A DNA stretch of 40,113 nucleotides, from NCBI GenBank assembly GCA_005879585.1, contig VBKG01000162.1:1-40113 (forward strand), in the 5' to 3' direction. Origin of the DNA: Deltaproteobacteria bacterium. GTDB taxonomy: Bacteria; Desulfobacterota; Binatia; DP-6. A program made the translations under genes and the position numbers. The notes under the pieces are model-generated. The model was not told the DNA's origin, made no database searches, and saw nothing but the letters and a program-made list of their open reading frames with translations. Positions 35,365-38,025 of the stretch are shown in pieces (position 1 is the stretch's first letter; each line of letters opens with the position of its first letter).

Positions 35365-36291
35365 ATGAAGATCGGCATCGGCATCGGAGACATCGCGGGC
35401 GCACCGGCGGACGTCGACGGCCTCGTCGCCCAGGCGAAGCGCGCGGAGGCCGACGGTTTTGCGAGCGGCTGGTTCGCCAACATCTTCGGCATGGACGCGA
35501 TCCTCGCGGCGGCGCTCTGCGCGCGGGAGACCGCCCGCATCGAGCTCGGCACCGCCGTCGTGCCGACGTATCCCCGCCATCCGGTCGCGATGGCGCAGCA
35601 GGCGCTGTCCGCGCAGGCGGTGGCGCGGGGTCGCTTCGCGCTCGGCATCGGCCTCTCGCACCAGGTCGTGATCGAGGGGATGTTCGGCTTCTCGTTCGCC
35701 AAGCCCTACAGCCACATGAAGGAGTACCTCGCGGTGCTCGGCCCGCTCATCCGGACGGGCAGCGTGAGCCACGCAGGCGAGGAGTACCGGGTGAACGCGC
35801 AGATCGCAGTCCCCGGCGCGACGCCGTGCCCCATCCTCGTCGCCGCGCTCGCGCCGAGGATGCTGGCGCTCACGGGGCGCGAGGCGGACGGGACGATCAC
35901 GTGGATGACCGGGCTCCGGACGATCCGCGAGCACACCGTCCCGCGCATCCGCGAGGCCGCAGCCGCGGCCGGCCGGCCCGCGCCGCGCGTCGTGGTCGGG
36001 CTGCCCGTCGCCGTGACGCGCGAGGTGGCGGCGGCCCGCACGTCGGCGGCGCACGGCTTCCAGATCTACGGCGCGCTGCCCTCCTACCGGCGGATGCTCG
36101 ATCTCGAGGGGGTCGAGGGGCCGGGCGACGTGGCGATCGTCGGCGACGAGAGCGCCGTCGGGGAGCAGCTCGAGCGTCTGGCCGAGGCGGGCGCCACCGA
36201 CTTCCTCGGCATCCCGTTCCGCGTCGACGGCGATGCGGATGCGCCGGCCCGCACGCGCGCGCTGCTCGCCCGGCGCGCGGCGAGGTCCTGA
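35365..36291 (+). CDS. LLM class oxidoreductase, probably F420-dependent
   Basis: 308 residues, TIM-barrel luciferase-like monooxygenase/reductase fold, N-terminus MKIGIGIGDIAGAPADVDGL, ARETARIELGTAVVPTYPRH and RFALGIGLSHQVVIEGMFG. It most resembles the subgroup using coenzyme F420 (TIGR03564 type); FMN cannot be excluded from sequence alone. Substrates are typically hydrophobic ketones, hydroxyls or lactones. ATG 35365. The stop (36289-36291) is followed 5 bases later by a large inverted-repeat element that separates it from a second LLM gene on the same strand. Confidence 0.88.
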   Translation: MKIGIGIGDIAGAPADVDGLVAQAKRAEADGFASGWFANIFGMDAILAAALCARETARIELGTAVVPTYPRHPVAMAQQALSAQAVARGRFALGIGLSHQVVIEGMFGFSFAKPYSHMKEYLAVLGPLIRTGSVSHAGEEYRVNAQIAVPGATPCPILVAALAPRMLALTGREADGTITWMTGLRTIREHTVPRIREAAAAAGRPAPRVVVGLPVAVTREVAAARTSAAHGFQIYGALPSYRRMLDLEGVEGPGDVAIVGDESAVGEQLERLAEAGATDFLGIPFRVDGDADAPARTRALLARRAARS

Positions 36292-36296
36292 AGCCT

Positions 36297-36593
36297 AGGA
36301 GCGCGACCCAAGACATCTTGGGTCGCGGAGCGGAGGCGAGAGTGTTGCGCCTTCGTCACGCCCGACCGCCGTGCCGCGGCTGGCAAAGCCAGCGCGGCAG
36401 AACAGGCACGCGCCGTCGCAAGGTCTCGCGGGGCTCGTTGATCCGTTCGCAACTGGGCTTGTTCGCGGCTGCGAACCGCGCGTGTTCGTTTGCCGCGCTG
36501 GCTTTGCCAGCCGCGGCAGGTCGGTCGGGCGTGATGCGGACGGAGCACGCCCGCGTCCGGTTCGCGACCCAAGATGTCTTGGGTCGCGCTCCT
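36297..36593. repeat. 297-bp nested inverted-repeat element (MITE- or REP-like)
   Basis: Outer arms 36297-36326 and 36564-36593 are perfect 30-base inverted repeats. Each contains a 24-base palindrome (36303-36326 and 36564-36587) with 11-bp stems and a 2-base centre, CA on the left and TG on the right. Inner arms 36356-36399 and 36491-36534 form a 44-base inverted repeat with two mismatches, each carrying a GCTGGC-AAA-GCCAGC hairpin (or its complement). The arms look related from the ends to about 36418 and from 36475. No transposase gene is inside; the frames here show only repeat translations. Confidence 0.9.
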
Positions 36594-36601
36594 GCCGAGC
36601 G

Positions 36602-36742
36602 TCACGGACCCGCGAGCGGGCGGTAGTAGTGCACCGCCGAGCGGCCCGTCTCGCGTAACGCATTTCCGACGAACGCGCCGTACCACTGGCCGTTGCCGAC
36701 GAGACATGTGTGCCACGCGGTGCACGACGTCCGCCGCTCCAC
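36602..36742 (-). CDS. possible 46-residue protein upstream of the second LLM gene
   Basis: Starting GTG 36742 with a weak GGAAG 9 bases upstream, this minus-strand frame reads 46 residues of unusually coding-like composition: TSCTAWHTCLVGNGQWYGAF, then VGNALRETGRSAVHYYRPLA. It has two cysteines in a CTAWHTC spacing, three aromatic clusters and no arginine/alanine bias, unlike the noise frames around it. A TGA closes the same frame about 42 bases upstream, so it cannot extend. It lies between the inverted-repeat element and the LLM start, on the opposite strand. No family recognised; it may also be the tail of a gene cut off by the LLM gene. Confidence 0.45.
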   Translation of the reverse strand: MERRTSCTAWHTCLVGNGQWYGAFVGNALRETGRSAVHYYRPLAGP

Positions 36743-36780: not shown

Positions 36781-38025
36781 ATGAGATTCGGCATCTTCTA
36801 CGAGCACCAGATTCCCCGTCCCTGGGAGAACGGCGACGAGCATCGGCTCTACAAGGAGGCGCTCGCCCAGGTGGAGCTCGCCGACCGCCTCGGCATCGAC
36901 TTCGCGTGGGAGGTCGAGCACCACTTCCTCGAGGAGTACTCGCACTCCTCCGCGCCGGAGGTTTTCCTCGCCGCGGCGAGCCAGCGTACGCGGCGCATCC
37001 GGCTTGCCCACGGGATCACGCTCATGCCGCCCAACTACAATGCCCCGGCGCGGGTCGCCGAGCGCATCGCGACGCTCGACCTCGTGAGCGACGGCCGCGT
37101 GGAATGGGGGACAGGCGAATCGTCCTCGCGGATCGAGCTCGAGGGCTTCGGCATCGACTACATGGCGAAGCGGGAGATGTGGGAGGAGGCGGTCCGCGAG
37201 ACCGCGAAGATGATGTGCATGGAGCCGTATCCCGGCTACCAGGGGAAGTACTTCTCCATGCCGGTACGGAACGTCGTCCCGAAGCCGGTCCAGAAGCCGC
37301 ATCCCCCGCTCTGGGTCGCCTGCTCGAACCGCGACACCATCAAGCTCGCGGCGCGGCTCGGGATGGGGGCGCTCACCTTCGCCTTCGTCGACCCGGCGGA
37401 TGCCCGGTACTGGGTCGACGAGTACTACGACACCTTCAAGCGCGAATGCACGCCGATCGGCCGCGCCGTCAACCCGAACATCGCGATGGTGACCGGCTTC
37501 ATGTGCCACGAGAACCCCGAGGTGGCGGTCGCGCAGGGGCTCGAAGGCTTCAAGTTCTTCGGCTTCGCGCTCGCCCACTACTACATCACCGGCACGCACG
37601 TACCGGGTCGGCTGAGCGTGTGGGACGAGTTCAAGAAATCGACGCCGTTCCCGATGATGCCGACGGGCGGCATCGGCAGCCCCGATCAGGTGCGCGAGAA
37701 CCTCGTGCGCTTCGAGGAGGTCGGGGTCGACCAGGTGATCTTCATCCAGCAGGGCGGCAACAATCGGCACGAGCACATCTGCGAGTCGCTCGAGCTCTTC
37801 GCGGCGCGCGTGCTCCCCGGCTTCGCGGAGCGCCACGAGGCGCGCGAGCGCCGGAAGGCAGAGGCGCTGGCGCCGTACGTCGCGCGGGCCCTCGGTCGCA
37901 TGCCGCCGCTCGCGCCCCTGGCGGAGGTGCCGGCCGTCGAGTCCTATCCGGTATTGATGCAGCGGCTCGGCGTCGACATCTCCCAGATCGGCTCGGCGCG
38001 GCCGGTGGGCCGGCCGCGGGATTGA
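36781..38025 (+). CDS. LLM class flavin-dependent oxidoreductase
   Basis: 414 residues, luciferase-like monooxygenase family: MRFGIFYEHQIPRPW, LGIDFAWEVEHHFLEEYSHS (equivalent to the W-x-E-H-H motif of luciferase alpha subunits), IRLAHGITLMPPNYNAPARV, RVEWGTGESSSRIELEGFG and PPLWVACSNRDTIKLAARLG. It uses reduced FMN, or F420 in some subgroups, and oxygen to oxidise an aldehyde, ketone, alkane or organosulfur compound; which one is unknown. It is longer than the 300-350 residue average because of a C-terminal extension (about 365-414). ATG 36781. No flavin reductase is adjacent. Confidence 0.9.
   Translation: MRFGIFYEHQIPRPWENGDEHRLYKEALAQVELADRLGIDFAWEVEHHFLEEYSHSSAPEVFLAAASQRTRRIRLAHGITLMPPNYNAPARVAERIATLDLVSDGRVEWGTGESSSRIELEGFGIDYMAKREMWEEAVRETAKMMCMEPYPGYQGKYFSMPVRNVVPKPVQKPHPPLWVACSNRDTIKLAARLGMGALTFAFVDPADARYWVDEYYDTFKRECTPIGRAVNPNIAMVTGFMCHENPEVAVAQGLEGFKFFGFALAHYYITGTHVPGRLSVWDEFKKSTPFPMMPTGGIGSPDQVRENLVRFEEVGVDQVIFIQQGGNNRHEHICESLELFAARVLPGFAERHEARERRKAEALAPYVARALGRMPPLAPLAEVPAVESYPVLMQRLGVDISQIGSARPVGRPRD

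Follow-up and report, generated by a model that had tools for sequence, protein, structure and literature searches.

Gene-less small repeats are common in bacteria, and what leads them to harmless sites is seldom clear. Several described systems come close to the element considered here. In REPINs, which are linked to RAYTs, REP units form inverted doublets (PMC3116915); TAG stop codons are often provided by REP termini (PMC3733652), and TnpAREP cleaves at CT (PMC8266576). TIRtrons and double-hairpin TIR repeats of P. putida, P. fluorescens, and S. maltophilia combine a REP-like stem with a second stem-loop, are often dimeric, and adjoin a tyrosine transposase gene (PMC3733652). A further precedent comes from the IS5 group. 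The target duplication of IS5 is Py-T-A-Pu, in most cases CTAG (PMC5493358), and MITEPsy1, an IS5-group MITE with 18-nt linear terminal inverted repeats and a related insertion sequence (ISPsy2), duplicates 4 nt when inserting at CTAG or YTAA (PMC3189936).

The window, i.e. the whole stretch of 40,113 nt that was analysed, harbors at 36297-36593 a nested palindrome that a sequence-only reading had described as a gene-free set of inverted repeats within inverted repeats. This description is borne out by the sequence, including the lack of any gene inside. Positions 36297-36326 are the reverse complement of 36564-36593 over 30 nt (31 including the next base), and each of these outer arms holds the 24-base palindrome GCGACCCAAGA-(CA/TG)-TCTTGGGTCGC. 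The 44-base inner arms (36356-36399 and 36491-36534) are present but, pairing at 42/44 positions, not perfect; each contains the second hairpin, in which a single G is bulged. As had been proposed, the four hairpins all fold independently. Taken as a whole, the arms extend over 103 nt at 87% complementarity and enclose 91 nt, and folding as DNA yields -149.5 kcal/mol vs. -78.7 +/- 3.6 in shuffles (z -19.8). In shuffled sequence, 0 occurrences of the 22-nt palindrome core with up to 3 mismatches are expected. Rfam gave no match at gathering score, the long stem producing only generic sub-threshold matches to miRNA precursors. Terminal inverted repeats, here perfect over 30 nt, together with absent coding capacity are characteristic of a MITE of a DDE transposon.

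Sequence comparison divides the element (36297-36593) into two convergent units and an inter-unit spacer of 91 nt (36400-36490). The left unit lies on the plus strand (36298-36403; covariance model R1, 96.7 bits, E 2e-15) and consists of an outer hairpin, a core, and an inner hairpin. Its outer hairpin, CGCGACCCAAGA-CA-TCTTGGGTCGCG (36302-36327), is predicted by folding and by stem pairs that covary across the family, and its inner hairpin, TGCCGC(G)GCTGGC-AAA-GCCAGCGCGGCA with the bulged G in parentheses (36372-36399), by folding and the family alignment. The right unit occupies the minus strand (36487-36592; R1, 95.2 bits, E 4e-15), with the inner hairpin folding at 36491-36518 and the outer hairpin at 36563-36588. 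A CTAG at the left end (36295-36298) is a candidate target site or end tag; at the right end, the CTAG expected behind the outer hairpin is lost and reads CCTG.

The element had been placed between two LLM genes of the same strand. Both neighbors indeed match the PF00296 profile of luciferase-like monooxygenases on the plus strand (35365-36291 and 36781-38025), and the TGA stop of the first (36289-36291) ends about 3-4 nt before the left CTAG. A remnant of a convergent gene intervenes, however, on the right side: only the 3' end of this minus-strand gene (...GNGQWYGAFVGNALRETGRSAVHYYRPLAGP*; about 36601-36720, TGA stop at 36601-36603) is left here and the remainder is lost, whereas the gene is intact in the congeners G001 and G002. 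Since the last 120 nt of this gene border the element on the right, it is in fact framed by a pair of convergent stop codons. According to BLAST, the orthologous place in G002 carries a single unit of another subfamily directly behind the same stop codon, and that in G001 a glutathione-transferase-like gene (named from its translation) and no element.

The palindrome belongs to a dispersed family. In the host's own genome (G000; 5.28 Mb in 625 contigs), a DNA search with the element finds about 40 further places, mostly with 76-81% identity over about 105 nt, which follow a common plan: CTAGGAG, outer hairpin, a core of about 45 nt, inner hairpin bearing a single bulged G, a spacer, and then the same mirrored. 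A search for the exact 24-nt palindrome, as had been suggested, returned only its two arms; the repeats form a divergent family. The outer hairpin core CGACCCGAGA-N1-10-TCTCGGGTCG occurs 93 times in this genome and its reversed control 0 times. With the half of about 108 nt taken as the unit, on which the covariance models A1 and R1 were built, 99 units are found, arranged as 41 convergent pairs spanning 203-420 bp (18 of them at 335-337 bp, the mode) and 17 single units, so that the whole family occupies about 50-58 places. No other arrangement was seen within 1 kb of any of the 99 units, and the readable inner sides of several singles show remains of a partner unit. The 41 convergent pairs are the inverted doublets that characterize REPINs and BIMEs. 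With about 58 places, a site of replication or recombination, one of the functions originally considered, is unlikely.

Nineteen full-length copies share a mean identity of 97.6%, and their flanks are mutually unrelated, which argues for a recent spread by a route other than segmental duplication. The contigs are short, and chimeras can create palindromes; even so, that the palindrome arose by chance or during assembly has practically no probability left, since the element recurs with both halves at tens of positions in the congeners G001 and G002, and also in independently published MAGs. The picture of a single copy, absent from relatives and devoid of a target footprint, does not apply.

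Orthologous empty sites point to mobility more directly. Five elements, three on contig C460 and one each on C289 and C284, face empty sites (E1-E5) in G001 and/or G002, the presence/absence pattern expected of a mobile element: 230-340 bp in the own genome correspond to a short intergenic spacer in the relative, and coding continues on both sides. The notion of a MITE or a BIME-like REP cluster is thereby sustained in the form of a dispersed, mobile MITE/BIME-like repeat, with head-to-head pairs as the only paired arrangement. In the empty-site relatives, CTAG stands as or near the stop codon at E1, at E5, and at E2 in G002, and a CTGA stop without CTAG is found at E4 in both relatives and at E2 in G001; for these latter sites, insertion into a pre-existing CTAG would need an extra step. 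At E1 and E3 in G001 (L214 and L217, on its contig C91), the two intergenic places hold a different hairpin-rich repeat (…ATCAGCGAGGGGCTCC..CCCCTCGCCCCGGCGGGCGAAGCCCGCCGGG…). At E2 in G002 (L216, on its contig C220), a short tandem duplication of the gene end (CTGGCTCGTCGGCTAG…ATCAGCCTCCA…) is found where the own genome has the element.

The ends of the element are closely tied to CTAG. This tetranucleotide lies within 12 nt of 44/80 element ends, vs. 2/1709 random 22-nt windows. In 228 kb of loci from the own genome, it is depleted about six-fold relative to base composition (101 occurrences where 589 are expected), and about half of those that remain lie at ends of the element, a share to be read against the choice of these loci around elements. 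CTAG on both sides of the element may be a short target-site duplication; being identical to its reverse complement, it could also be part of the element itself. Gene ends are found at the same boundaries. Gene-like frames (at least 100 open codons, GC3 of at least 0.80) stop at one end in 18 and at both ends in 11 of 39 elements (29/39 in total), and after shifting the boundary by 60-300 nt, they do so in 0-2 of about 35. Genes also end at 7 of 18 unoccupied CTAG sites; the link to stop codons may simply reflect the places in which CTAG occurs and insertion does no damage.

The family is thus very probably a non-autonomous mobile element of two facing two-hairpin units of about 108 nt each, which move as one piece and insert at CTAG. 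Insertion at CTAG would leave this tetranucleotide standing at each element end. A good part of the rare CTAG sites are gene stop codons (..C TAG), often common to two convergent genes, and the preference for CTAG would consequently bring the element to lie directly behind stop codons. Insertion at such stops would spare both genes, leaving as surviving copies those that reach exactly from one stop codon to the other. In this way, a rare tetranucleotide doubling as stop codon would explain the near-perfect fit between genes. As a by-product, the hairpins behind the stops might terminate transcripts or shield them. A single enzyme acting in trans would recognize the hairpin ends, most likely as folded single strands in a REPIN-like manner and less likely as DDE-type inverted repeats.

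The placement between convergent stop codons, with strong hairpins 5-9 nt past the stops, would also be expected of a bidirectional 3'-end element owned by the host, i.e. a selected, non-mobile terminator or mRNA stabilizer. This explanation is improbable: orthologous genes in the congeners manage without the element, near-identical copies lie within unrelated flanks, and the family is restricted to one bacterial family. A terminator scan of the element gave 1 hit (weak, in the spacer) vs. 0.4 in shuffles, and no T run follows the outer or inner hairpins of the window element, as an intrinsic terminator would have it. The stems are conserved in a manner to which a host function could equally lay claim. 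Among 42 diverse units, 10 of the 20 stem pairs show changes on both sides that restore pairing and just one one-sided change is seen, counts that are inflated by sequence kinship and to which arm-to-arm palindrome repair could contribute. G-T intermediates are practically absent from the unit stems, which fits with pairing being kept at the DNA level.

A hairpin scan of GTDB genomes additionally uncovered a compact cousin with a related head and a different body in a Myxococcota-labelled MAG (FCS_M_Myxococcota_02). It reads CTAG-CAGGC-[CGACCCAAGAC..GTCTTGGGTCG]-GCTTGCGCCGCAAA-[CGGAGCCC..GGGCTCCG]-TCAG-CTAG and is present in at least 23 copies (loci L075-L117, on CAMYLJ contigs). CTAG flanks it on both sides in 23/23 copies, and a gene-like frame ends there in 20/23. 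The cousin shares with the window family the head (CTAG-[CG]AG-NN-CGACCCRAGAC hairpin), a second hairpin, the CTAG ends, and the placement at stop codons. It differs in being one unit of about 70 bp with no inverted partner and with a different second hairpin. It is not symmetric, has two subterminal hairpins, and contains only a poor inverted repeat (about 7/11, by eye). Because it lacks the inverted-pair build, its CTAGs on both sides show that such ends are more than a mere consequence of symmetry. It is rather doubtful that both belong to one widespread superfamily of two-hairpin CTAG/stop-codon inserters, with singles in one phylum, inverted pairs in another, and a transposase neither of the classical RAYT nor of the IS4/IS5-type DDE kind.

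Among the Y1 and PF01609 genes searched, none could be tied to the element. The element could be a REPIN proper, i.e. an inverted REP-type pair moved as ssDNA by a host RAYT (HUH Y1), in which CTAG would take the place of the GTAG tag; this is a tentative option with somewhat less than an even chance. The head-to-head doublets, decayed singlets, and compensatory changes are those of REPINs (PMC3116915), and the bulged hairpin with an adjacent tag ending in TAG resembles TnpAREP substrates cut at CT (PMC8266576). Outward tags and extragenic dispersal are further traits shared with REPINs and BIMEs of the GTAG REP type, in which the TAG of the tag is often used as stop codon (PMC3116915, PMC3733652). 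The head CTAGGAGCGCG is similar to Xanthomonas REPs (GTAGGAGCGCG...) (PMC2817692), and the compact cousin likewise speaks for this option with its non-symmetric build and two subterminal hairpins. The window family differs in its CTAG(GAG) tag in place of GTAG and in a unit that includes an additional, bulged hairpin and measures about 108 nt instead of 20-40 nt.

RAYT-like Y1 genes are found in the own genome (6), G001 (7), G002 (5), G003 (2), and G006 (1), those of the own genome matching NF047646 at E 1e-8 to 1e-12, which is below the cut-off of that model. G004 and G005 yield no Y1 match although both carry elements, and the search of G003, where Y1 genes are matched, found no element, so that the agreement between RAYT presence and repeat abundance known from REPINs is missing. 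The binding by a RAYT-type enzyme suggested by the sequence-only reading finds no support here either: no unit lies within about 1.5 kb of any Y1/RAYT-like gene found in searching seven genomes (assembly gaps being a caveat), and the REP-type stem-loops sought beside RAYT genes amount to scattered short stems that form no family. The RAYT-like Y1 proteins (L052-L057, L198-L212) have the motif GGxRxGAGRK in common at the N-terminus; near their genes, no repeat of the window family is found. Since these RAYT features are lacking, the family falls outside the REPINs strictly defined. Between or beside the units, no transposase gene was seen in assemblies that break at repeats; TIRtrons and TIR repeats, whose unit likewise joins a REP-like stem to a second stem-loop, differ in this respect. 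The single units were considered as possible autonomous copies and dismissed, with inner sides that hold decayed partner units and ordinary genes.

Derivation as a MITE from an IS5-group-like DDE transposon, with the outer arms as terminal inverted repeats and CTAG as a 4-bp target duplication, is a somewhat less likely option than a REPIN proper. The target preferences of IS5 and MITEPsy1 agree with it. IS5-group MITEs such as MITEPsy1 are similarly gene-less, with inverted ends and CTAG/YTAR on both sides, and even the non-symmetric cousin has CTAG on both sides. The poor inverted repeat of the cousin argues against this origin, as does the near absence of PF01609 (DDE_Tnp_1), which is matched once in the own genome and not at all in the element-bearing G001, G004, and G005; no unit is present at the PF01609 loci. 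In the window family, the ends are themselves hairpins, not linear repeats as in MITEPsy1, and no related insertion sequence was found. As to the type of enzyme, three features (the bulged hairpin, the REP-like head, and the cousin's lack of symmetry) tip the balance slightly towards the REPIN/TnpAREP precedent over that of IS5/MITEPsy1. The many near-identical copies, the empty sites in congeners, and the compact cousin make both the target choice and the moving enzyme directly testable. Searches of an open-access library found no description of a CTAG/stop-codon element in this lineage, which does not prove that there is none; as far as this literature shows, the real, mobile, REPIN/MITE-like family is new.

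The distribution of the family is narrow. Among 118 relatives searched, it is found only in the bacterial family of the host (5/6 same-family relatives, 0/112 others). The scan of GTDB genomes added the MAGs DP_23, DP_26, and OFTM107; hairpin matches in Terracoccus, Terriglobus, Embleya, Luteitalea, and a Clostridia MAG do not have the CTAG head and were taken as chance. The plasmid sequences searched gave no match, and the viral contigs one stray hairpin without a unit. The subfamily of the window element (CCCAAGA stem) has a single copy in the own genome, more than 20 in G001, and more than 10 in G002. The window copy is 95% identical to one copy in G001 (L170), vs. only 83-86% for the neighboring genes, a difference that hints at arrival by transfer, with constraint as the alternative. 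Two copies within G001 are 99.7% identical to each other.
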